Source of the DNA: Phytohabitans rumicis
Lineage (GTDB): Bacteria; Actinomycetota; Actinomycetes; Mycobacteriales; Micromonosporaceae
Length of the DNA: 64,000 bases
NCBI RefSeq assembly: GCF_011764445.1
Contig: NZ_BLPG01000001.1
Span: forward strand, 1,674,001 to 1,738,000
Reading direction: 5' to 3'
Shown here piece by piece: positions 1 to 12,559 of this stretch. The notes below the pieces were generated by a model. The model saw only the letters and a program-made list of their open reading frames with translations. It searched no databases and was not told the DNA's origin. Positions within the stretch are counted from its first letter, which is position 1; each line of letters starts with the position of its first letter. Both the position numbers and the translations under genes were made by a program.

Positions 1-148
1 CCCGCTCGGCCAGACCTCGCTCCGCATTGGCGGCGATCACCATCACCCGGCAGGCCCCCAGCTCCCGGATCTCCTCGGCCAGCTGGGTGGCGGCCTCGCC
101 GGTGGCGAACCGGACCCGCTGCGGCAGTGTGTCATGAACGAACCGCAT
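1..148 (-). CDS. Maleylacetate reductase, N-terminal fragment
   Basis: Partial gene running off the left edge. The 49 visible residues begin MRFVHDTLPQRVRF and continue into a beta-alpha segment ending VMVIAA, which matches the amino terminus of iron-containing alcohol dehydrogenase-like maleylacetate reductases. That family reduces maleylacetate to 3-oxoadipate, the last step of hydroxyquinol and resorcinol ring degradation. Its ATG lies 17 bases inside the end of the ROK regulator gene, so it appears to be the fifth gene of the leftward operon. A ring-cleavage enzyme behind deglycosylation genes suggests that the aglycone is aromatic. Only the N terminus is visible, so the assignment rests on motif resemblance. 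Confidence 0.6.
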   Translation of the reverse strand, partial: MRFVHDTLPQRVRFATGEAATQLAEEIRELGACRVMVIAANAERGLAER

Positions 149-1295
149 CAGCGCACCCCCATACCACGTCAACGTTCCAGGGCACGGACCGGCCGGAAGG
201 CGTCGGTCGTTGCATGACCATGGGGGCGCCGAAGGCCACCTCGCTTGCCAGCACGGCGGCGCCCACGACCCCAGCGCGTGGGCCGAGCTGGGACAGCACG
301 ACCGGCAGGTTGCCGGTGGCCAGCGGCGACGACCGGCGGTACACGGCGCCGCGGATCTCGGCGAGCATCAGGGTGCCCAGGCCGGCGACGCCGCCGCCGA
401 TCACGATCATCGACGGGTTGAGGAAGTTGACCAGCATCGCAAGTACGGTGCCCAGCCGGCGGGCGCCTTCCCGGATCAGGTTGATGGACGTCAGGTCGCC
501 CTCGGCCGCGCCGCGGGCGATGTCTTTGGCGGTAAGGGAGCTGAGCACCGCCGCCAGGCAACCGGTGTTGCCGCAGGAGCAGACCGGACCGTGCGGGTCG
601 ACCTGGATATGGCCGATGTCGCCGGCCCGGCCGTCCGGACCGCGGTACACCTCGCCGCCGACGTGGATGCCGCAGCCGATGTCGGTGTCGATCTTCACGA
701 AGAGCTGGTTGTCGACCGGGCCTTCGACTCCGGCGTGCCGCTCGCCGATCGCCATTACCCTGACGCCCTCGTCGACCGCGACCGGACAGCCGTGCTGGCG
801 GCCCAGGGATTCGCACAGCGGATAGCGGTCCCAAACTGGAAGGCTCGGCGAGATCGGGAGGCCACCGTGCACCCTCACCCGCGCCGGCATCCCGATGCCG
901 ATCGCGGAGAGCCGTTCGTACACACCGTCTGTCTTGAACGAGGCGAGGATCTCGTCGACGCGCGTCAGCATCGGCCTGGGCCCGCGCGCGGCGTCGGCCG
1001 GCTCGGAGTATGACGCCACCGGCCGCAGCGAGCCGTCGGTGATCTCGACGTCGATCGAGGTCAGGCCGAGGTCGATCGCGGCGAACCGGATGTGTGGATC
1101 CAGCTCGATCAGGGCTGGTCGTCGCCCGCCGTGCGACGGTGCCGGACCGGTCTGACGGACCTTCCCGGCCGCGGTCATGCGACCGATCTCGACGCCCAGC
1201 CGCGGTCGCGACAGGTCCAACCGATCCGCCAGCTCGGTACGCGACATCGGCCCTTCGTCGCGCAGCAGGGACAGGACTTGGTACATGAGGGTCAC
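132..1295 (-). CDS. ROK-family transcriptional regulator
   Basis: About 387 residues. An N-terminal winged helix (around MSRTELADRLDLSRPRLG) precedes a ROK fold starting FAAIDLGLTSIDVEI. The ROK signature GDIGHIQVDPHG is followed by the CSCGNTGC cysteine cluster that binds zinc in this family. Proteins with both parts are usually sugar-responsive repressors like NagC or XylR. The GTG start overlaps the oxidase stop codon (GTGA); an ATG three codons later (1286) is the alternative. Being inside the operon, it probably controls the deglycosidase and oxidase genes and responds to a sugar or glycoside. The ligand cannot be told from sequence. Confidence 0.85.
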   Translation of the reverse strand: MTLMYQVLSLLRDEGPMSRTELADRLDLSRPRLGVEIGRMTAAGKVRQTGPAPSHGGRRPALIELDPHIRFAAIDLGLTSIDVEITDGSLRPVASYSEPADAARGPRPMLTRVDEILASFKTDGVYERLSAIGIGMPARVRVHGGLPISPSLPVWDRYPLCESLGRQHGCPVAVDEGVRVMAIGERHAGVEGPVDNQLFVKIDTDIGCGIHVGGEVYRGPDGRAGDIGHIQVDPHGPVCSCGNTGCLAAVLSSLTAKDIARGAAEGDLTSINLIREGARRLGTVLAMLVNFLNPSMIVIGGGVAGLGTLMLAEIRGAVYRRSSPLATGNLPVVLSQLGPRAGVVGAAVLASEVAFGAPMVMQRPTPSGRSVPWNVDVVWGCADAVRS

Positions 1296-2791
1296 CGTTC
1301 GAGCTTTGCGGTCAGGTGTCCGGCGGCGATGACGGCCAACGCCACGGCCGTGGCCGTCGGGTTGCACGCTGTCGCGGTCGGGATGACGCCGTTGCCTCCG
1401 ATGTAGAGGTTGTGGAACCCCCACACGCGGCTGTGCGGGTCGCAGACGGATGCGCCGTCGTGGCTCTGTCCCATCCGTACGGTGCCTTGGTAGTGCAGCG
1501 AGCTGCCCGCCGGCAGCAGGCGTGGCTGGCTGCCGGGGAAGAAGTCGCCGACGGCTTCGGCCTGCGCGACCATGTCTCGCTTGGCCCGGGTGATGGTGGC
1601 CCGGTCACGCTCGGTCAGTCCATAGTGGATCGACATCCTGGGCATGCCGAAGTCGTCGAGGTCGGTGTCCGAGAACTCGACTCGGTCCTCAGGTCGGATC
1701 TCCTTGGTGGTGAACCGGCCCCAGGTCACGACCGGCCGGTCGAGAACAGCGGCACCCGGTACGTCGATTGGCGTGGTGCCGACCTGCATGACCTGGGTGT
1801 GGAAGGGGAAGTCCGGCTCGTGGAAAGGGATCCAGAGTACGCCGGTCAGCAGGTCCCGGCGGTCGGCCGTTTCGCGCGCCGGGCCGGGCGGCGTGGTGAC
1901 GCCGTTCTCGCGGAGCGCGAGGGCGCTGACGATCTGCGGTTGGTCGTTGAGGTGTTTCCCGAGGGCCGGTGGCCGGATGCCGGAGGCCCACAACAGCTGG
2001 GGTGTCCGAAGCGCATCGGCGGCGACCGCCACGGCCCGCACCTGGACCGTGTGTGTCTCGCCTGTGTGTCGACCGGCGAGCAGTGCGGCGTACACTAGGC
2101 CGTCGCGGTGCAGGAGGCGGCGGCAGACGGTGTCGGGGACGATAGTGAGCCGCTGCTGCTGGCCCAGGATGGTGTCCACACCGGACCAGTGCGGCAGCGA
2201 CTGTCCGGTCGGCGTGCAGGCGAGTGGCATCGGCTGGACTCGCCGGTCGGGTGGCCGTCCGCGGTCGAACACGGTCGACAGCTTCTGGAGCAGGCGTTGG
2301 CTGGCCTCCGTCGCCGGAAAGGCCGCGTTGGTGACGTTGAGCAGGTCGATCGCACGGTCGAATGCCTTGTCGAACGCCGCGCCGAGGAAGGCGATCCGCT
2401 CTGAGCCGCCGGGTCTAGGGCATGCGCAGGTCCAGTGGGCGGCCATCCCGCCGACGTTGGCGGACATGGCCGCCGCGGGCATGCCGGTCTGGTCGTCGCC
2501 GCTAACGTCCGCTGTCCGTACCAGGAACGTGCCTGGTCGGCTGGCGAGGTGGCCGTCGGCGCGGCCGGTGTCCGATGTGGTCTGTCCCGTCCATGCGGTC
2601 GCCCGTCGCTGAACGCAGCGCCGGTCCTCCAGGTCGAGGTTGCGGACGTTGGCACCCACGCCATCGGTGAGCCGGGGCCCCGCCTCGACCATCAGGATGG
2701 TCAGGTGCGGGGCCGCCTCGTGGAGCTCCCGGGCGAAGGTGGCGCCGACCGGCCCGCTGCCGACCACGAGCACATCGACGTCAGTGTCCAT
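1292..2791 (-). CDS. GMC-family FAD oxidase, candidate C-glycoside 3-oxidase
   Basis: 499 residues. The N terminus has the Rossmann motif DVLVVGSGPVGATFAREL for FAD, with an acidic residue closing the second strand (MVEAG). Near the C terminus are SSLHYQGTVRMG, with the usual GMC active-site His, and CNPTATAVALA, with the Asn partner. The layout is that of the pyranose-oxidase-like branch that includes CarA, which oxidises the sugar of C-glycosides to the 3-keto form before C-C cleavage. The start overlaps the preceding alpha-subunit gene by 11 bases. Co-transcription with both deglycosidase subunits is the main reason to prefer C-glycoside 3-oxidase over a general sugar oxidase. Substrate is inferred. 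Confidence 0.75.
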   Translation of the reverse strand: MDTDVDVLVVGSGPVGATFARELHEAAPHLTILMVEAGPRLTDGVGANVRNLDLEDRRCVQRRATAWTGQTTSDTGRADGHLASRPGTFLVRTADVSGDDQTGMPAAAMSANVGGMAAHWTCACPRPGGSERIAFLGAAFDKAFDRAIDLLNVTNAAFPATEASQRLLQKLSTVFDRGRPPDRRVQPMPLACTPTGQSLPHWSGVDTILGQQQRLTIVPDTVCRRLLHRDGLVYAALLAGRHTGETHTVQVRAVAVAADALRTPQLLWASGIRPPALGKHLNDQPQIVSALALRENGVTTPPGPARETADRRDLLTGVLWIPFHEPDFPFHTQVMQVGTTPIDVPGAAVLDRPVVTWGRFTTKEIRPEDRVEFSDTDLDDFGMPRMSIHYGLTERDRATITRAKRDMVAQAEAVGDFFPGSQPRLLPAGSSLHYQGTVRMGQSHDGASVCDPHSRVWGFHNLYIGGNGVIPTATACNPTATAVALAVIAAGHLTAKLER

Positions 2792-3836
2792 CCTCGATCG
2801 CCTCGCTCGGGCCGGCCTGCCCTTCCGCCCGCAGGGCAGCGATGGTGCGCCGTTGCAGCTGGTGGTGCCGGCTGATCATGTCCCACGGGTCGTCGTTGAG
2901 GTTCCAGTGCCAGCCTTCCCACTCGCTGGAGATGTAGCCGGTGTAGCCGGACCGGAGGAACACGCGCAGGATGTCCCGCACCGGCACCGCGGGTTCGTCC
3001 CCTGAGGCGTCGATGTCGTAGAACTTCCCGTGCATGTGTACGGTCCACGGCGCCACCATCTCCCAGTCGGTAGGGCTCGCGTGGCCGAACAGTCCGATCG
3101 AGTTGCGTGCGATGGATTGACCGTCCGGCCCGACCCCCTCCTCCTCGAGGATCTGGTACACGGCGCGGTACATGTCCGGCAGCGTCGAGTCGTCGAGGAT
3201 CGGCCCCCGCTCGTGCTGCGCCAGCCAGCTCTGCTCGATGCGGCGCAGATATCCGTCGGGAAGGCCGCGGCGCCGGGCGGCTTCGAGCAGGCTGGGTGGC
3301 ATCCGGCGCATGGTGCTTCCCCAGTCGGGGATGAATCCCAGGCGTGGTGAGTCGAGCTTCTCGTACCGTTCTCGCAGCGCGACCATGATCGGATGGTGGG
3401 GCGAGTGGTGGGCGTGAATTTCCAAGCCCAGCTTGACGTCTTCGCGTTCCGCGATGGGTAGCAGGCGTTCCATGTCGTCCGGGGTGACCGAGAACTGCAC
3501 CCGCACCACCGGAAAGCCCAGCTGCCGTGCCGCGACGATCTGCGCTTCCATGTATGGGACGAGCTCCTGCGGCGTCAGCAGCCGATCCCGCCGGATTCCG
3601 GCGTCCGCGTTCGCACCCATGCACGCCGGGACGAGGCCGGTTTCGTCGATCAGCGAACGGAACGCGTGGATCTGCTCGTTCGACAGGTGCGGCCATCCCC
3701 GAAAGCTCTGGAAGCCGACGACCTCCAGACCCGGCCCCAACCCGAGCTCGCTGACCCGTCGCACCGCCTCCTCGAACGAGATGCGCCGGCCGTGGAAGTC
3801 GCGGGTGATGCTGTAGAGCGTGGTGCCGAGCTTCAT
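2781..3836 (-). CDS. C-glycoside deglycosidase alpha subunit (TIM barrel)
   Basis: 351 residues with the xylose-isomerase-like TIM-barrel fold of sugar phosphate isomerases/epimerases. Candidate metal ligands lie in order: Glu in LGLEIHAHH, Asp in FIPDWGS, His in HMHGKFYDID and Glu in SSEWEGWHW. In the CarB/DgpB families this subunit pairs with a small beta subunit to break the C-C bond of 3-keto C-glycosides. The ATG overlaps the beta-subunit stop (ATGA), which implies translational coupling and matched amounts. Read alone it could be called a sugar phosphate isomerase/epimerase; the adjacent beta subunit makes deglycosidase the better call. Confidence 0.78.
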   Translation of the reverse strand: MKLGTTLYSITRDFHGRRISFEEAVRRVSELGLGPGLEVVGFQSFRGWPHLSNEQIHAFRSLIDETGLVPACMGANADAGIRRDRLLTPQELVPYMEAQIVAARQLGFPVVRVQFSVTPDDMERLLPIAEREDVKLGLEIHAHHSPHHPIMVALRERYEKLDSPRLGFIPDWGSTMRRMPPSLLEAARRRGLPDGYLRRIEQSWLAQHERGPILDDSTLPDMYRAVYQILEEEGVGPDGQSIARNSIGLFGHASPTDWEMVAPWTVHMHGKFYDIDASGDEPAVPVRDILRVFLRSGYTGYISSEWEGWHWNLNDDPWDMISRHHQLQRRTIAALRAEGQAGPSEAIEDGH

Positions 3837-4228
3837 GCCGCCACCTCCAGTTGTTTGGCGCAGGTGTCGAGGTTAACCAGCGGCTTTCCGCCCACCGGCA
3901 GGTACGGGATGTGCAGTCCCATCACGACGCTGATTTCGTGGACGCCGGGCTCGCCCGCCGCCGCGCTTTCCACGCTCAGCAGCGCCGAGTCGAGCACGTA
4001 CCACCAGGTGTCGGTCAGCGGAGCCAGTGCGGCCACGGGCAGCGGGCCGACCGGGCCGAGGCTGAAGCGGACCGCGTCCTGCTCGACCTGCTGCCCGTCG
4101 ATGGTCACGGTGATGCGTTCGATGCAGGACAGCGGCAGCGCGCGGTACCAGGTCAACCGGAGTGCGGCGGTGAAGCCACCGGGCACCGGGCGCAAGCTCT
4201 CCGCCTCAAGCAGGCGTTCTGGGAACAA
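3833..4228 (-). CDS. C-glycoside deglycosidase beta subunit (DUF6379)
   Basis: 131 residues, a small beta-sandwich protein of the DUF6379 family, known as the CarC/DgpC beta subunit. The core LTWYRALPLSCIERITV followed by DGQQVE is its hallmark. A homologous segment, RLPWFRALPVSCIERAAV, forms the first domain of the fused gene at 7483. The start is TTG: a GAGG ribosome site lies six bases upstream and no better codon is in frame. It is the first gene of the leftward operon. The subunit has no independent catalysis that I can infer; it shapes the active site of the alpha barrel. Confidence 0.75.
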   Translation of the reverse strand: MFPERLLEAESLRPVPGGFTAALRLTWYRALPLSCIERITVTIDGQQVEQDAVRFSLGPVGPLPVAALAPLTDTWWYVLDSALLSVESAAAGEPGVHEISVVMGLHIPYLPVGGKPLVNLDTCAKQLEVAA

Positions 4229-4437: not shown

Positions 4438-5706
4438 ATGATCGAGAAGAAGGGAGCCCGCCTCGCGCTGGCGGCCGTTACGGTCGCCGGTCTGCTGGCC
4501 GGCTGCTCGTCCGGCTCCTCGGATAGCTCCACCACCGTCACCTTCGCCGGCCAGACGCAGGAGAAGGACATTTGGGATGCGCAGTTCAAAGCCTTCGAGC
4601 AGGCGCATCCGGACATCAAGGTCGATGCCCAGTACACGCCCAATGACTCGTACCCCCAGCTGATGCAGACGCAGCTGCAGGCGGGCAACGCCGCGGACGT
4701 CATACAGACCACACCTGGTACCGGCGGCGGCCTGCCCGCCCTGACACTGGCCGCCGGCGGCCGCCTGGCCGACCTGACCAACATGTCCTGGGTCGGCTCG
4801 ATGCCGGCCAGCAGCAAGCCTCTGGTCACATTGGACGGAAAGGTCTACGCGTACCCGACCGACGTGGCTCCCCTGTTCGTGGCCTACAACCCTCAGCTGT
4901 TCAGCGACGCGGGGCTCTCGGCACCGACCACGTTCGCCCAACTGACCGACGCGTGCACCAAGCTCAGCGCGGCCGGCGTCACGCCGATCAGCCTCGCCGG
5001 GGCGTCGTACCAGAACACGAGCATCCTGGTGCAGGCCATCGCCGCCAACAACGTGTTCGGCCCGGATCCGGACTGGAACACCGAGCGGAAGGCCAACAGC
5101 ACCACGTTCGCCTCGGCCGCCGGCTGGCAGAAGACGGTGTCGGACGTCAAGAAGCTGATCGACGCGAAGTGCTTCGCATCCGACGTGGCCGCCGTCAAGG
5201 CGCCGGTACACATGCAGCGGTTCGCGGCCAGCAAGGCGGCGATGTACGTGATGCCCGCACAGGCGATCAACTCGGTGCGCAACGCGGCGCCGGACCTCAC
5301 GTTCTCCTCTTTCGCGTTTCCCGCCGACACCGCCGCGCAGACCCGGGTGTCCGCCGCGAGCGGCATCGCCCTTGTGGTCAACGGCAAGGCCCGTAACAGC
5401 GACGCGGCCCGCAAGCTCATCGACTTTCTGAGCACACCCGCCCAGCGCGCCGCATACGCCAACACGGCCGGAACCATCGCCCCGGGAGCCGGCCCCGACG
5501 GCAGCGATGTCTACACCGACATCCTGACCCCGCTCAAGCCCTACATGGCAACGGACAAGGTGCTGACCCTCAACTACCTCTCATGGCCGAACGCGAACGT
5601 CGCACAGCAGCTGGCCACCAGCGTCCAGGGACTGTTCACCGGCCAGAAGACGGCCGAACAGGTACTGGCCGACACGGACCAGGCATGGAACACCGCGAAC
5701 AAGTGA
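4438..5706 (+). CDS. ABC sugar importer, substrate-binding lipoprotein
   Basis: 422 residues. The N terminus is a lipoprotein signal: basic residues, a hydrophobic stretch, then the lipobox LLAGC and a Ser-rich linker. The mature part is a family 1 extracellular solute-binding protein (opening TVTFAGQTQEKDIWDAQFKA), the class that delivers oligosaccharides and glycosides to CUT1 importers. The ATG at 4438 is chosen because the lipobox then falls at a normal distance. Its stop codon overlaps the next gene's start (TGATG). Context suggests the ligand is a glycoside such as a C-glycosyl aromatic compound, which is inference. Confidence 0.88.
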   Translation: MIEKKGARLALAAVTVAGLLAGCSSGSSDSSTTVTFAGQTQEKDIWDAQFKAFEQAHPDIKVDAQYTPNDSYPQLMQTQLQAGNAADVIQTTPGTGGGLPALTLAAGGRLADLTNMSWVGSMPASSKPLVTLDGKVYAYPTDVAPLFVAYNPQLFSDAGLSAPTTFAQLTDACTKLSAAGVTPISLAGASYQNTSILVQAIAANNVFGPDPDWNTERKANSTTFASAAGWQKTVSDVKKLIDAKCFASDVAAVKAPVHMQRFAASKAAMYVMPAQAINSVRNAAPDLTFSSFAFPADTAAQTRVSAASGIALVVNGKARNSDAARKLIDFLSTPAQRAAYANTAGTIAPGAGPDGSDVYTDILTPLKPYMATDKVLTLNYLSWPNANVAQQLATSVQGLFTGQKTAEQVLADTDQAWNTANK

Positions 5707-6641
5707 TGACGCGCGAGAGCCGTGTCGGCGTGGACTCAGCTCCCGCCGGCACGGGCGGCGCCGTCCAAGCGACCCGCCGCACGATTCCGGGCCTGCGACT
5801 GTCGAGGCTCTGGGCGCTGCCGGCCCTGATACCGGTGTTCCTCCTGCGCTACCTGGCCGTCGGCGTCGGCGCATACTACGCATTCACCAGCTGGAACGGC
5901 GTCAGCGTCCAAGCCGACTTCGTCGGCTTGGCCAACTTCCGCCGGCTCTTCTCCGACGAGGTGGCCCGGCAGGCCGTTTGGAACACGCTCCTGCTGTCGA
6001 GCACGGCCGTCATCCTCTCGAACGTCTTCGGGATGCTGCTCGCGCTCAGCCTCAACCGTCTACTCAGGACACGCCAGCTGCTCCGGTCGATGTTCTTCGC
6101 ACCGTTCGCCATGACGCCGCTGGCCGTCTCGTACGTGTGGGCCTACATCCTCGACTACGACGGGCTGCTCAACCGGACCCTCGGCTGGGTCGGGCTCTCC
6201 AGTTGGCGCCACGCGTGGATCGGCGATCCGGACACCGCCATCTGGACCATCCTGGTCGTGCTCGTCTGGCAGCTCTCCGGCCTGTGCATGATCATCTACC
6301 TCTCCGGCCTCCAGGGAGTTCCCGAAGAGGTGATCGAGGCGAGCGAGCTCGACGGGGCGGGACAGTTCGCGACGTTCCGCCACGTGCTGCTGCCGCTGCT
6401 CAACCCGGCGATCGTCGTGGCGGTGGCGCTACCGACGATCATGACGCTGCGGGTCTTCGACCAGGTGATCGGCCTGACCAACGGCGGCCCGGCGCAGGCC
6501 ACGGAAACCCTTGCCACGCAGGTGTACCGGCAGTCGTTCGTCAGCGGCGACTACGGGTACGGCGCGGCGATCGCGCTCATGCTGACCGTCGTGATCGCGG
6601 TCGTCTCCCTGGCGCAGATCTTCATCCTGAGGCGGCGGTAA
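5706..6641 (+). CDS. ABC sugar importer permease, MalF type
   Basis: 311 residues with six predicted membrane helices. The cytoplasmic EAA loop (EVIEASELDGAGQFATFRHV) is where the ATPase docks. Length and loop match the first permease of CUT1 systems. The start overlaps the binding-protein stop by one base. As in many actinomycete CUT1 operons there is no ATP-binding subunit here, so a shared ATPase of the MsiK type encoded elsewhere is expected. Confidence 0.9.
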   Translation: MTRESRVGVDSAPAGTGGAVQATRRTIPGLRLSRLWALPALIPVFLLRYLAVGVGAYYAFTSWNGVSVQADFVGLANFRRLFSDEVARQAVWNTLLLSSTAVILSNVFGMLLALSLNRLLRTRQLLRSMFFAPFAMTPLAVSYVWAYILDYDGLLNRTLGWVGLSSWRHAWIGDPDTAIWTILVVLVWQLSGLCMIIYLSGLQGVPEEVIEASELDGAGQFATFRHVLLPLLNPAIVVAVALPTIMTLRVFDQVIGLTNGGPAQATETLATQVYRQSFVSGDYGYGAAIALMLTVVIAVVSLAQIFILRRR

Positions 6642-6646
6642 CCCAC

Positions 6647-7486
6647 ATGAGCCGACTGAAGTACCGCAAGCGCACGTTCGCCAGAGAAGCGCTCATGCTG
6701 CTGGCCGCCGCCCTGTGGTGGGTGCCCTTCTATCTCGTCGTGGCACTGTCCTTGCAGGACAACGAAGCGGTGACCGAGCGCTCGCTCGCACTGCCCATCA
6801 CGCACCCGGAGCTGGAGAACTTCAAGGAAGCGTGGAGCGGCGCCGGCGCCAACCTGGGCCGAGGGCTACTTTCCAGCGTCATCATCACGCTCAGCAGCGT
6901 GTTCGTGGTCGTCGTCCTCGGCTCGCTCGCCGCCTACACGATCGCCCGCCACGCTTCCCGCCTCAACAACGTCCTCTACGTGACGTTCGTGCTCGGCATC
7001 GTGATGCCGTACCAGCTCGGGCTGATACCCGCCTTCATAGCCCTGCGCGAGCTGGGCCTCGTGGGCAGCTACGCCGGCATGGTGCTCCTCTACACCGGGC
7101 TCGAGCTGCCGACGGCGATCTTCCTCTACGCGGGTTTCATCCGCGCGTTTCCCAGGGAGTACGAGGAAGCCGCGCTCGTCGACGGTGCCGCGCCGTTCCG
7201 GGTCTACTGGCGCATCGTCTTTCCCCTCATCTCGCCCATCACCGCGACCGTCGCGGTGGTCACCGCGCTGTTCGTGTGGAACGACTTCTTCAACCAGCTC
7301 GTGTTTCTCGCCGGCACGGACAACCAGACCCTTCCCGTGGCCATCTACGGTTTCGTCGGCGAGTTCGCCACCCAGTGGAACTACGTCTTCGCCGGGGTCG
7401 TCATCTCGATCCTGCCCGTGCTCGTGTTCTTCATCGTCACGCAGAAGCAGCTCGTCCGGGGCTTCACCGGCGGTATCAAGTCATGA
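6647..7486 (+). CDS. ABC sugar importer permease, MalG type
   Basis: 279 residues, six membrane helices and the EAA loop EYEEAALVDGAAPFRVYWRI. It is the second half of the transmembrane channel and starts six bases after the first permease. Its stop overlaps the start of the fused deglycosidase (ATGA), which links uptake to cleavage in one transcript. Confidence 0.9.
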   Translation: MSRLKYRKRTFAREALMLLAAALWWVPFYLVVALSLQDNEAVTERSLALPITHPELENFKEAWSGAGANLGRGLLSSVIITLSSVFVVVVLGSLAAYTIARHASRLNNVLYVTFVLGIVMPYQLGLIPAFIALRELGLVGSYAGMVLLYTGLELPTAIFLYAGFIRAFPREYEEAALVDGAAPFRVYWRIVFPLISPITATVAVVTALFVWNDFFNQLVFLAGTDNQTLPVAIYGFVGEFATQWNYVFAGVVISILPVLVFFIVTQKQLVRGFTGGIKS

Positions 7487-8826
7487 TCGACGCGTACACC
7501 CTCGACGCCTCCGCGACGCGGCATGACGACCACGGCCTAATCGCCTGGTCGATCCGCCTTCGCCTGCCCTGGTTCCGGGCCTTGCCGGTGTCCTGCATCG
7601 AGCGGGCGGCGGTCCTCGTGGACGGGCAGGCGGTCGCCGACCGGGATTTGTTGTTCCGCCTCGACGGCCAGCACCGGCCCTTGTCCGATCTGCACGCGAT
7701 GCCGACCCGCTACTGGTCGGTCGACGAGACGTTGCAGATCGGCGTCCGCGGCGAAAGCCTCGTGCCGCGCGCGGAAGCAGCCGTCACGGTCGAGCTGACC
7801 CTGCGGCTGCCGGACAGCGGCGGCAACGGAGGCGACTGGTCGAGGCGGGTCGCCTGCGGCGCCGTGCGGGTGTCCGACCCCGGCCACGCGCCGTGGCCGC
7901 TCGGTGTGTGCACCTTCAGCCTCGGCGCCGAGCTGCGACGGGGCCGGTCGCTGCGATCCTGCCTCCAGCGGATCGCGGCCATCGGCGGCTACACGGGGCT
8001 CGAGCTCCTGGGCGCCCAGGTGGTCGAAGGCTACCCGGCGCCGGAGCGGCGATGGCTCGACCGGTTCGCCCGTGAGCTGCACGCGACCGGCCTGGAGCCG
8101 GTCTGCTACGACGCGTTCCTCGACCCCGGCCGCACCACGGTCGCCGCCCGCGACGACGCCGCCATCATGGCCCTGGCGGAGGCGGAACTCGACATCGCCG
8201 CGGCGCTCGGCTGCTCCCACGTCCGCCTCAACGTGCCACCCCGCCGGCCGCTGCTCGACCACCTCGCGGTGGCCGCCGAGCAGCGCGATCTGACCGTCCT
8301 CAGTGAACTGCACGCGCAGACGTCCGCCGACCCTGGCGTGGAAGCCCTGCTCGAACACCTGAACGCCATGCGATCCCCGCACCTGGGCCTGATCCTCGAC
8401 CTCTCCTGCGTGATGCGGGCGCTGCCACCCGGATTCGTACGCCACATGATGGCCGCCGGCTTGCCCGCCGACGCGGTGCGTCACATCGCCGAGAGCTGGT
8501 CCGCCGGTCTGCCGCCGCCAGCGCTGCCGAGCGCGACCGCCACCGCCTTCGCGCAACGCGCCTATCGACTGTTTCACCGGTCTGACACCGGCTGGCTGCC
8601 AGACGTCCTGCCGTTCACCCGGATCGTCCACGGAAAGTTCTTCGACATGGACGGCGGCCGGGAGCCGTCCATCCCCTACGGACAGGTGCTCACGATGCTC
8701 AAGCGAACGCGGTTCGACGGCTACCTGATGAGCGAGTACGAGGGCCATCTCTGGGACGGCTCGCCCGACACCTTCGCGCAACTGCGGGGGCACCAACGCA
8801 TGATCTCGGAACTGTCGAATGTCTGA
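7483..8826 (+). CDS. Single-chain C-glycoside deglycosidase: beta-alpha fusion
   Basis: 447 residues. Residues 1 to about 132 align with the separate DUF6379 beta subunit at 3833-4228 (shared core FRALPVSCIER, then VDGQAV). Residues from about 140 (WPLGVCTFSLG) form a TIM barrel like the alpha subunit at 2781-3836. The putative metal ligands are kept: Glu in SELHAQ, Asp in ILDLSC, His in IVHGKFFDMD and Glu in MSEYEGH. The alpha motif HAHH is HAQT here, so specificity may differ. No stop occurs in any frame near the joint, so a merger by base error is unlikely. The gene is coupled to the importer upstream and overlaps the dehydrogenase downstream by 8 bases. Confidence 0.72.
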   Translation: MIDAYTLDASATRHDDHGLIAWSIRLRLPWFRALPVSCIERAAVLVDGQAVADRDLLFRLDGQHRPLSDLHAMPTRYWSVDETLQIGVRGESLVPRAEAAVTVELTLRLPDSGGNGGDWSRRVACGAVRVSDPGHAPWPLGVCTFSLGAELRRGRSLRSCLQRIAAIGGYTGLELLGAQVVEGYPAPERRWLDRFARELHATGLEPVCYDAFLDPGRTTVAARDDAAIMALAEAELDIAAALGCSHVRLNVPPRRPLLDHLAVAAEQRDLTVLSELHAQTSADPGVEALLEHLNAMRSPHLGLILDLSCVMRALPPGFVRHMMAAGLPADAVRHIAESWSAGLPPPALPSATATAFAQRAYRLFHRSDTGWLPDVLPFTRIVHGKFFDMDGGREPSIPYGQVLTMLKRTRFDGYLMSEYEGHLWDGSPDTFAQLRGHQRMISELSNV

Positions 8827-9846
8827 GCACCCGCTGCCCGTCGCGCTGATCGGCTTCGGCGGAGCCGGAGCCGGCCTGCACGCCCCACTGGTCGGCGCCC
8901 ATTCAGCATTCGCGTTGAGCGTCGTCGTGACCAGGAACCAGGAGCGTCAGCGAGCCGCGAAGGCGCGGTTTCCGGCGGCCCAGGTCGGCAGCGACCTGAC
9001 CGCGGCGAAGGGCTGCGCCGTCGCCGTCGTGGCGGTCCCTCCCGCCTCTCGGGCGCGGATCGTCGACCAGCTCCACGATCTCGGCACCCACGTGGTGGTC
9101 GACAAGCCGATGGCCACCGACCTACGCGAAGCCGAGCAGCTCCTGGGCCACGCGCCACTCGCGATATTCCACAACCGCCGATGGGACAGCGACTTCCTGA
9201 CCCTCAGGAGGCTGCAAGGCGAAGGGGCATGGGCCGGCCCGGCACGCCTTGAGTCGCGACTACAGTGGTGGCAGCCCACCGTCCGGGACAGCTGGCGAAA
9301 CCATCCGACCGGCGGTGGGATCCTGCTGGAGGTCGGTCCACACCTCATCGACCAGGCCATCACCCTGCTCGGCCCGGTCGTCGATGTGTACGCCGAACTC
9401 GACGCCCGCCGGCCCGGCGCGATCGCCGAAGACGACGTATTCCTCGCGTTGCGACACGCGGACGGCAGCCTGTCCCACCTGTCGATGGGACCCGTCGGCG
9501 ACGCCCACTCCCCCCGCTTCGAGCTCACCGCCGGTGGCACCCGGATCACCCTGGGAACCCCCGACCGCCAACAGGAACAGCTCGCCGAAGGACTCGCACC
9601 CGGCGACGACACGTGGGGATGCCGGACGCCCACGACTGGGTCATCCGAACCGGACCGCAGCCACCCGCCCCTGTCCACGCCGAGCGCGGGCGGTGGCAAG
9701 CCTTCTACGATGCCGTCGTCCCCTGGATCAGCCAGGACGCCGCGCCACCGGTGTCGGCACAGGAGGGCCTGGCCACGATGCGAGTCATCGACGCCGCCCG
9801 GCGCTCGAACGCTGAAAGGCACCTTGTCCCACTCATGGAAAGATGA
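8819..9846 (+). CDS. Gfo/Idh/MocA-family NAD(P)-dependent dehydrogenase (frame break)
   Basis: About 342 residues once one base is restored. The N terminus is a Rossmann fold (VALIGFGGAGAGLHAPLV) and VVDKPMATD carries the family EKP-like lysine. GGGILLEVGPHLIDQA holds the usual catalytic-region Asp and His. After GDDTWG the frame is lost at the GGGG run 9615-9618; one more G continues it as MPDAHDWVIRTGPQ to the stop at 9846. In puerarin degradation a Gfo/Idh enzyme (DgpA) makes the 3-keto C-glycoside, so this may be the oxidase partner of the fused deglycosidase. An inositol or other sugar dehydrogenase is the alternative. Confidence 0.78.
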
Positions 9847-9852
9847 CAGACG

Positions 9853-10560
9853 ATGGACGAGAGCACGCCGTCGACAGAAGCGGCCAACGAGCTGATCCAA
9901 CTGCTGGAGCTGTCGGACCGACGCGAGCCAGCAGTCGTGGAGATCGCTGTCTGGGTCGCCCTCGGCATCATCGAGGGCCGGCTCCGTCCCGGTCAGGACC
10001 TCAACAGCGTCGACCTGGCCAACCGGTTCCAGTCCAGCAGAACCCCGGTCCGAGAAGCACTGGCCCTGCTGGAGTCGGAAGGGCTCGTCGAAATGCGGGC
10101 CCGCCGCCGCCCCCGGGTGGCATCGTTCAGCCCGCAACAGGTTCGCGAAGTATTCATCGTTCGGGCCCACCTACTGTCCATGGCCGGGCAACTGGCCGCC
10201 ACGCAAGCATCGGACGACGACCTCGCCACCCTCAGCTCGATAGTCGACACGCTGAAAAAACACGCCGCCAACAATGACGACGCCAACTACCGCTGGACAC
10301 ACTTCAAGTTCTTCGACGTCATCGCCGACATCGCCGGCAACATCACCATGAAGGGAATCCTGAACTCCCTGTTCGTCCGCACCCTGTCGGTGCGGCGCAC
10401 CCTCTCACAACCGGAACGGCTCACGGAAAGCCTCCACTACGCCGAACTCACCCTGGAAGCACTCCAGCAACGGGACAGCGAACTCGTCGCGCTCCTGATG
10501 CGCCGCTCCGTCCTGGCCGCCCTCGCCGCCATAGAGCGCAGCGGATACGGGCGCACGTAA
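9853..10560 (+). CDS. GntR-family regulator, FCD subfamily
   Basis: 235 residues. The N-terminal winged helix includes GIIEGRLRPGQDLNSVDLA and SSRTPVREALALLESEGLV, the classic GntR recognition element. The C-terminal half is an all-helical FCD ligand domain. It ends the rightward operon, seven bases after the dehydrogenase. FCD regulators usually sense small organic or sugar acids, so it probably represses one or both divergent operons. Its operator may lie in 4229-4437. Confidence 0.88.
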   Translation: MDESTPSTEAANELIQLLELSDRREPAVVEIAVWVALGIIEGRLRPGQDLNSVDLANRFQSSRTPVREALALLESEGLVEMRARRRPRVASFSPQQVREVFIVRAHLLSMAGQLAATQASDDDLATLSSIVDTLKKHAANNDDANYRWTHFKFFDVIADIAGNITMKGILNSLFVRTLSVRRTLSQPERLTESLHYAELTLEALQQRDSELVALLMRRSVLAALAAIERSGYGRT

Positions 10561-11036
10561 GCCGTAGCTGGCTGGCGTCCTATGACACAGGCGTGAGCAC
10601 CAGCTGCACCGCAAGCTAACCGCTGATCGACCGCGAACAGTGGCTCGACGATACTCACGGCGGCTCGCAGAGGCATTGATCTGCAGCGCCGGCAGGGCGA
10701 TCAGCATGGCGTGCTCGTGCCGGGCTCCCGAACAGGTCGACGACGTACACGCTGCGCAGGCGGGGACGCGGCCGAAGTCCACAAAGGACCCGCTGGTGCG
10801 AAGCCGCGTACGTCATTGCCGCCGTTCCAGGCCGGCACGACCCAGGGCAGGAACGTCCACAGTGTTCCATGGACCGCCCCGACAGGTGTCGCGGTGGGTT
10901 CAACGCCATGATCCTCGATCAGGTACAAGAACCGACGCCCCCTTGACACGCAATAGAGGGGTCTGTCCTCGAGCCGGCAGTCACCCACTCTTCTGGGGCA
11001 TTGGTGTCGAATCTGGGTCAGCGTGACGATTGGGGC
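10561..11036. other. Intergenic stretch without a recognisable gene
   Basis: 476 bases between the GntR gene and the serine recombinase. Open frames exist on both strands, but none has a family motif or a convincing ribosome site. It may contain the left boundary of the old element that brought the recombinase. Confidence 0.5.
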
Positions 11037-12559
11037 ATGCCTTCGAAGTCCGCCGCCGCGAGGGCCGGTGCGCGCTCGACGGCGGACGGGCCGGTTCCGG
11101 ACTTGCTCGGCTGGTATATCCAGCGGGATCGGGGTCGGCACGCCCGCCGCCGTCTGTCCACTGCGGCCGTGGATGGCGGTATCCGGTTTGCGTTCTACGG
11201 TCGGATCTCCACCGAGGATTGGCAGGATCCTGGGTCGTCGGGGCGGTGGCAGCGGGATTTCGCTGAGGAGTTGATCGCCGGGCGGGGGGTGATTGTGGCG
11301 GAGTTCTTCGATGTCGGGTATAGCCGTTCCCGGGATTGGGGACGCCGGCCGTGGGCGGCTGCGCAGCTGGCTGACCCGCAGCGCGGTTGGGAAGCGGTCG
11401 TGGTCGGTGAGTTCGAGCGGGCGTTCTACGGCGATCAGTTCGAGCAGATGGCGCCGGTCTTCGCCGCGCACGGGGTGCAGATGTGGCTGCCCGAGCTGGA
11501 CGGCCCTGCCGATCTCTCTAACGCTTTGCATGTGTCGTTGTTGCGGATGTTGGGGGTGCACTCGCGGCGGGAGGTGCAGCGGGCCCGGTTCCGGGCGAAG
11601 GCGGCGATGCGGGCGCAGGTCGAGGGTCAGGGCCGCAACCTGGGTGGCCGCCCGCCGTACGGGTATCGGTTGGTGGACGCCGGTCCGCATCCGAACAGGG
11701 CGCATGCCCGGTGGGGGCGGCGGGCGCTGCGGCTGGATCCGGATCCGGCGACCGCGCCGCACGTTGCGTGGATGTTTGCACAGCGGTTGGCCGGGCGCAG
11801 TATCACCGCGATCGCCCGGGATCTGAATGAGCGCGGTGTGCCGTGCCCCTCCCAGGTGGACGCCGAACGGAACCGGCATCGCAGTGGGCGGGCGTGGATC
11901 TGGCAGACGGTGGCTGCGATCCTGGCCAATCCGCGGTATACCGGGCGGCAGACATGGAACCGGCAGCGCACCGACTCCGGCCCCTCGACACCGCCGACGA
12001 CATCTTGGGCCGGGCGGAGGCTCGGCGGCGGAACAGCCTGCAGGACTGGGTGATCTCCGAGCAGCTCGCTCACCCGCCGCTGGTCAGCGAGGAGGATTTC
12101 GTCGCGGTGCAGGCGATCTACTGCACGCCGCAGCCCGCCGACGGCACCAGCCGCGAGTTCGCGCTGTCCGGGTTGCTGTTGTGCCAGATCTGCGGGCGGC
12201 GGTTGACCGCGCACTGGGTACACGGCCGTGCCGGCTACCGCTGCCGCCACGGGCACACCAGCGCCCAGGTCCGGCGGCAGGACCGTCGGCGCAACGTGTA
12301 TGTCCGCCAGGACCAGGTGCTGATGTTCCTGGCTGCGCACGTTCCGCAGCTACGGCATCTCGACCCTGAACACGACGCGGACACGACCGCCATGGACGTC
12401 TTGGCGGCGTTCCAGCGGGGGCATGAGCTGGCGGTGGTCTGCACCAACTACACCTGGCGCCTCGACGTGGACGACGTAACCGTCTTCGACGGCTGGCCAT
12501 CGCGCCTGCCCCGCCGCGAGATCCCCCGTCAGGCGAGGGGGAGCCACATGCCCACGTGA
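11037..12559 (+). CDS. Large serine recombinase (frame break)
   Basis: About 507 residues if one base is restored. The catalytic domain starts FAFYGRISTEDW, with the nucleophilic Ser in YGRIS. The Recombinase domain contains GGRPPYGYRLVD. After the break comes a zinc ribbon (LLCQICGRRL, then YRCRHGH). The frame is lost at the CCCC run 11981-11984; adding one C joins RTDSGP to LDTADDILG. ATG at 11037 is preferred over an upstream GTG at 11001. Such enzymes integrate phages and mobile elements, but I see no matching att pair here. The window-wide pattern favours a sequence error over inactivation. Confidence 0.8.

Follow-up and report, generated by a model that had tools for sequence, protein, structure and literature searches.

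Beta and alpha domains of the C-glycoside deglycosidase sequence family naturally joined in one chain in Phytohabitans rumicis, with phenylalanine at a conserved tyrosine position

We analysed a stretch of 64,000 nucleotides of Phytohabitans rumicis DNA (contig NZ_BLPG01000001.1, positions 1,674,001 to 1,738,000; hereafter the window), in which a single gene encodes a 447-residue protein with a beta domain followed by an alpha domain. This protein is a natural beta-alpha fusion in the C-glycoside deglycosidase (CGD; 3-keto-glycoside lyase) sequence family. Genes for a beta and an alpha subunit also stand separately at the same locus. All seven metal and catalytic residues that we checked are retained in the fused protein and its beta domain carries a phenylalanine, Phe31, at an otherwise nearly invariant tyrosine position. 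From these sequence features, we consider that the fused enzyme may be a lyase of 3-keto-O-glycosides and perhaps also a hydratase of the glycal (probability about 0.45), and that the adjoining two-chain pair is probably a C-glycoside lyase.

The fused gene forms one uninterrupted frame from ATG to TGA. In the Pfam scan both domains scored over their curated cut-offs: CGDB (DUF6379, PF19906) at residues 18–109 (E 2.5e-11, 43.9 bits against 27.6) and AP_endonuc_2 (PF01261) at residues 163–423 (E 3.1e-12, 47.2 bits against 31.1). A previous reading made from the letters alone (the sequence-only reading) had proposed such a beta-then-alpha chain accompanied by separate subunits, and both proposals were borne out, the separate genes matching the same two families (Table 1). 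The beta and alpha parts of the fused protein share 31% and 29% identity, respectively, with these separate subunits (BLASTP). A PF19906 search of the whole source genome returned two beta domains, the fused one and the separate one; NCBIfam held no model for the fused protein, the separate beta or the separate alpha. Among solved chains, the closest to the fused protein were CGD alpha subunits (phmmer; best 8qvc, from Deinococcus aerius, E 3.6e-24) and the fused CGD of Microbacterium testaceum; by Foldseek, too, the best solved chains were CGD chains.

One syntenic ortholog of the fused gene was found, in Amycolatopsis bartoniae (L078:6001-7341), with 59% identity (267 of 457 alignment columns) and the two domains joined at the same place. 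Comparison of the two genes gave nonsynonymous (dN) and synonymous (dS) divergences of 0.28 and 0.85 overall, 0.33 and 0.79 for the beta part, 0.45 and 0.78 for 27 linker codons, and 0.25 and 0.88 for the alpha part. Judged from these values, the beta domain of the fused protein is under purifying selection. Third-position GC content remained high across the join (0.96 for residues 105–150). A sequencing or annotation accident over a stop and restart was thus rejected, since the codon pattern is continuous and an independent genome carries the fusion at the same place; the apparent frameshift in the next gene downstream, by which the assembly is possibly imperfect here, leaves such an accident highly improbable.

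The ortholog was found by a scan with an alignment. An earlier single-protein pattern scan of genome contigs gave 78 pattern matches and no relatives, a negative that reflects the limit of the patterns, since the later scan did find the A. bartoniae gene. Among 354 genomes of the bacterial family, source included, six had a match and a full-length match was seen in the source only, with at most four first-look candidates scored per genome, so that weak relatives were possibly missed. The same search gave one further fused protein (L113). Every candidate was scored in a separate search of 61 genomes.

To place these proteins among their relatives, we used a sample of 173 distinct barrels, obtained by scanning genome contigs with three aligned fused proteins (best 80 of 301 related loci) and from earlier loci; as the query alignment was made of fused proteins, the sample is biased towards them. 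Barrels and beta domains were counted with profiles built from seven seeds. For a barrel encoded separately, we took the closest beta domain within 400 bases as its partner, one beta domain (L013) serving two barrels; four barrels had none within reach and were left out, giving 169 beta assignments.

The alpha domain keeps every active-site residue that we checked. The metal ligands of AgCGD2 are E147, D179, H269, K271 and E305, with H149 and E307 as catalytic residues, according to passages of PMC8563793. The fused protein retains all seven, as E275, D306, H383, K385, E418, H277 and E420. The sequence-only reading had pointed to an alpha motif HAHH that reads HAQT here. This is literally true, but HAHH is not a key motif: the stretch starts at the catalytic His, differs after it and is variable across the 173 barrels, HAHH being found in two (the separate alpha of the window and its A. 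bartoniae counterpart) and HAQT in two others (the fused protein and its counterpart). With the catalytic E-x-H core and the metal ligands kept, and HAHH so rare, we rejected this difference as a functional change.

The beta domain gave a different picture at one position. Phe31 aligned by phmmer with residue 39, a tyrosine, of the DgpB chain 7bvr_B, whose numbering we assume to be that of the paper. As reported in passages of PMC10628242, all known CGEs conserve the tyrosine that is Tyr39 in the beta subunit of PuCGE, where the replacement Y39F resulted in a loss of activity of about 12,000-fold on 3-keto-C-glucosides and of 2.4-fold on 3-keto-phlorizin, a 3-keto-O-glucoside. The equivalent tyrosine, a feature of the known CGEs, is absent from the fused protein. 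Tyr was found in 164 of the 169 beta assignments; counted over distinct domains, 161 of 166 have it, and the remaining five carry Phe (the window protein, L078 and L036) or Ile (L024 and L041). Only the window protein and its A. bartoniae ortholog combine a full alpha set (EHDHKEE) with a non-Tyr beta domain. In L036, a two-chain pair, the set is EHDQKEE; its E-H motif is gapped, and Gln stands at a metal-His position, a replacement common in the sample (55 of 173 barrels). L024 and L041 read EQDHKEG and have lost the catalytic His and the second Glu. In both the window and the A. bartoniae locus, the separate beta beside the fused protein retains Tyr.

L024 (388-1833, minus strand; fused) and L041 (3128-4703, minus strand; two-chain, from Salinibacterium sedimenticola) form a divergent lineage, marked by the His-to-Gln and Glu-to-Gly changes together with Ile at the Tyr39 position. 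By these losses its members are perhaps no longer lyases.

Since the tyrosine that PuCGE requires for C-C cleavage is Phe in the fused protein, the name C-glycoside deglycosidase, given to it by the sequence-only reading, is doubtful. What stands is the family membership, by both domains and the seven residues; hence we file the protein in the CGD sequence family and not as a deglycosidase by activity. The preference for O-glycosides that we favour follows from the match of Phe31 with Y39F and the mild loss of that mutant on the 3-keto-O-glucoside. By analogy with this one mutant of a distant enzyme, Tyr in the separate beta and Phe in the fused protein suggest a division of labour between the two enzymes. 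We tentatively extend this to a pair of matched lyases, in which a change of one pocket residue would have split the bond preference, the two-chain Tyr enzyme acting on C-linked substrates and the fused Phe enzyme on O-linked ones or in hydration. With the same reserve, the fused enzyme could be seen as paralleling, in nature, the Y39F mutant made in the laboratory.

Several points weigh against an O-glycoside lyase. The effect of Tyr39 comes from measurements on a single, distant enzyme of two chains, and another residue could substitute for it in the fused protein. The pocket also varies widely, as PuCGE Tyr303 has no obvious equivalent even in the two-chain alpha of the window (SEWEGWHW versus SEYEGHLW, the position being read from an alignment). 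Moreover, the clade of the window protein has two known members only. Finally, the AlphaFold2 model of the fused protein, made from an alignment that held one close relative, deviated from 8un2 by a root mean square deviation of 14.5 Å over 460 columns for the whole chain.

This model was confident within domains (predicted local distance difference test 90.2, predicted template modelling score (pTM) 0.76). Compared by Foldseek, its barrel alone matched 8qvc with a template modelling (TM) score of 0.87 and its beta part matched known beta chains with 0.66–0.76, both by target length. As a control, the fused protein of Microbacterium testaceum NBRC 12675 (L081), modelled with the same 52 sequences and its own, gave a pTM of 0.90 and lay within 1.4–1.5 Å of 8qrz/8un2, to which it is 97% identical. 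The control is unequal: many of the relatives in its alignment reach 68–85% identity, whereas for the window protein a single one reaches 61% and no other exceeds 32%. Thus either the predicted placement of the beta domain differs from that in 8un2, or the model does not fix this placement. On the refuting structure named by the sequence-only reading, an N domain that does not contact the barrel as beta does, the model weighs neither way.

The same family and the same catalytic set as in CGDs are also what a true C-glycoside lyase would show, if the role of Tyr were taken by another residue or by the acidic phenol of the substrate and the fused enzyme differed from the pair in its aglycone. 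Its GMC oxidase partner is closest to 8qve, 7dve and 7qf8 (titled pyranose oxidase, 6'''-hydroxyparomomycin C oxidase and GMC oxidoreductase), which we take to be oxidases of C-glycoside pathways, and a fused homologue from M. testaceum is titled C-glucosyl deglycosidase. We nevertheless regard this explanation as less likely: Phe stands where 161 of 166 distinct beta domains have the Tyr needed by PuCGE for C-C cleavage (in passages of PMC10628242), and the two known members of the clade both retain this Phe.

Alternatively, the fused enzyme might be mainly a hydratase, adding water to a 2-hydroxy-3-keto-glycal freed by the two-chain lyase before a MocA enzyme reduces the 3-keto sugar. The last 8 bases of the fused gene, stop codon included, also belong to the MocA gene that begins there, and hydration should need no oxyanion pocket for the aglycone. 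However, a pure hydratase would find superfluous a full beta domain that is under purifying selection, and AtHYD (8ro4) was only a remote fold match (Foldseek rank 48), which makes this the less likely of the two alternatives. We keep a 3-keto-O-glycoside lyase, possibly with some hydratase activity, as the preferred assignment.

A beta-then-alpha single chain had been presented by the sequence-only reading as a new architecture, and this was contradicted. 8QRZ and 8UN2, titled 'Microbacterium testaceum C-glucosyl deglycosidase' and released 2025-04-23, are already one beta-alpha chain. They ranked first in Foldseek for the model of the window protein, and phmmer matched 8qrz_A across both domains in one stretch (20-310). 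Similarly, a Pseudarthrobacter fused protein matched 8qrz over 1-429 of its 430 residues. In the barrel sample, 108 of 173 were fused beta-alpha, 47 separate with beta then alpha, 14 alpha then beta, and 4 had no beta nearby. In two PF19906 searches with no selection for fusion, six of 25 distinct places among the matches listed were fused to this barrel (L002, L009, L010, L015, L017, L024) and two to a uroporphyrinogen-decarboxylase-type barrel, which speaks against uniqueness. Novelty was suggested by the CGDs in the literature passages, which are two-chain; refuted by 8QRZ/8UN2, it was rejected and its probability is negligible. Text searches of an open-licence library identified no paper describing the fused M. 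testaceum enzyme, though one may exist.

Fused and separate forms were found together in 14 of the 93 loci represented, and at least two fused genes in 43. On a quick alpha tree of 51 representatives, 10 of them fused, the state changed between fused and separate seven times, all seven forced by starred branches. Six changes remain when row L082 (7885) is left out; this doubtful entry, from a metagenome, is 'separate' within a fused clade and possibly reflects an assembly frameshift. The beta tree also scattered the fused rows (seven changes, six forced), with weaker support. The window protein and L078 formed a pair of their own on the alpha tree (100*), with the two-chain L036 as a weak neighbour (84, long branch), and the 8QRZ-like row L039 (4550) fell in a different part. 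As placed by this quick tree, the fused lineage of the window protein is distinct from the 8QRZ-like fusion.

Other arrangements of these domains were observed. L046 (4608-7419), like other Microbacteriaceae loci, carries a tandem of two unlike fused CGD-family genes: the first kind is 8QRZ-like and has Gln at the position of the metal His, and the second has an AgCGD2-like barrel. The stretch from Pseudarthrobacter siccitolerans 4J27 (L096) shows two fused genes; for the same strain, passages of PMC10646112 describe four CGD proteins near the oxidase gene, of which two are C and two are B. In L027 (1414-2985) and L028, a CGDB-like N-terminal domain is joined to a uroporphyrinogen-decarboxylase-type barrel. 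The CGDB match of L027 was below the cut-off (22.6 bits) and PF25653 fitted its N-terminal part better in a Pfam scan of L027 alone.

We then compared the fused protein with known systems. Like it, the M. testaceum CGD (8QRZ, 8UN2) is one chain, beta then alpha, with the same two domains. The two are however 22–23% identical (Foldseek alignment), the M. testaceum beta keeps Tyr (MPSYRG), Gln stands at the AgCGD2 His269 position (IQAKF) where the window protein has His, and the alpha tree puts its closest relatives in a different part. DgpBC and PuCGE (7bvr, 7exz) share the fold of the alpha domain (TM 0.86 in Foldseek, by target length), the metal ligands and the catalytic His, but have two chains and Tyr39. 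AgCarB2-C2/AgCGD2 (7dnm) is the closest solved relative of the separate alpha (E 4.6e-63), as the D. aerius CGD is of the fused alpha; both differ from the window protein in having two chains and Tyr at the aligned place (LPWYRSL and LPYYRGL, respectively). The reaction type predicted for the fused protein is that of AtOGE, a 3-keto-O-glycoside beta-eliminase, and of the 3-keto-beta-glucopyranoside-1,2-lyases 8tct and 8tcd. AtOGE is likewise a metal- and His-dependent barrel, but has neither a second subunit nor a lid domain (passages of PMC10628242); 8tct and 8tcd were remote fold matches to the window model (TM 0.41 by query length).

The features of the locus are collected in Table 1. The second permease gene ends 4 bases (ATGA) into the fused gene. 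The A. bartoniae locus has the same order of pair, GMC oxidase, solute-binding protein, both permeases, fused gene, MocA and GntR genes, with per-gene identities of 59–81% (tblastn). The ROK regulator had no match in L078, where its place would lie beyond the end of the stretch, which cuts the GMC gene. Aligned with its L078 ortholog, the MocA gene of the window keeps one frame as far as about 9673 and a second frame from about 9616 onwards. Just past the downstream end of the locus (11001-12559, plus strand), a large serine recombinase (PF07508, zinc ribbon PF13408) extends across two overlapping frames.

Table 1. Coordinates of the fused gene, its residues of interest and the neighbouring genes in the window
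Feature	Position	Strand	Evidence
ROK regulator	132-1424		
GMC oxidase	1292..2791	-	closest solved chains 8qve, 7dve, 7qf8
Separate alpha subunit; seven checked metal/catalytic residues all present	2781..3836	-	PF01261, 37.3 bits
Separate beta subunit; Tyr retained (LTWYRALPLSCIER)	3833..4228	-	CGDB, 61.5 bits
Extracellular solute-binding protein, ABC transporter	4438..5706	+	PF01547
ABC permease 1	5706..6641	+	PF00528
ABC permease 2; 78% identical to L078 counterpart	6647..7486	+	PF00528
Single-chain beta-alpha CGD-family protein, 447 residues	7483..8826	+	open reading frame, Pfam
Beta domain, residues 18-109	7534..7809	+	Pfam CGDB PF19906
Phe31 codon TTC, at PuCGE Tyr39-beta position	7573..7575	+	alignment to 7bvr_B
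Linker, about residues 110-139, without stop, in frame in L078 ortholog too	7810..7899	+	
Alpha domain, xylose-isomerase-like barrel, about residues 140-447	7900..8823	+	Pfam, phmmer, Foldseek
E275-L-H277, metal-ligand Glu and catalytic His (AgCGD2 E147, H149)	8305..8313	+	alignment, passages of PMC8563793
D306, metal ligand (AgCGD2 D179)	8398..8400	+	alignment, passages of PMC8563793
H383-G-K385, metal ligands (AgCGD2 H269, K271)	8629..8637	+	alignment, passages of PMC8563793
E418-Y-E420 (AgCGD2 E305, metal ligand; E307)	8734..8742	+	alignment, passages of PMC8563793
Gfo/Idh/MocA oxidoreductase; apparent frameshift near 9616-9673	8819..9895	+	Pfam, comparison with L078
GntR/FCD regulator	9853..10560	+	Pfam

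A pathway of oxidation, elimination, hydration and reduction is outlined in passages of PMC10628242 and PMC13273386. In a simple model of the window locus, the GMC oxidase would carry out the first of these steps, the two lyases the next two and the MocA enzyme the last. A glycoside would enter through the ABC transporter, and the GMC oxidase would then oxidise its C3 position. The resulting 3-keto-glycoside would be cleaved by beta-elimination, assisted by the metal and His277, and the 3-keto sugar would finally be reduced by the MocA enzyme, whose gene carries the apparent frameshift noted above.

The one-chain design itself was already known; the alternation of fused and separate forms on the tree makes the covalent beta-alpha linkage a repeated outcome in this family and not a curiosity. 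If the interpretation of Phe31 is true, the locus would be a natural test case for the role of the beta domain in C- versus O-glycoside specificity, with two lyases of one family, at one locus and behind one transporter, differing at the residue flagged by PuCGE mutagenesis. It would also help annotation, as a number of CGDB proteins might then have an activity other than C-glycoside deglycosylation.
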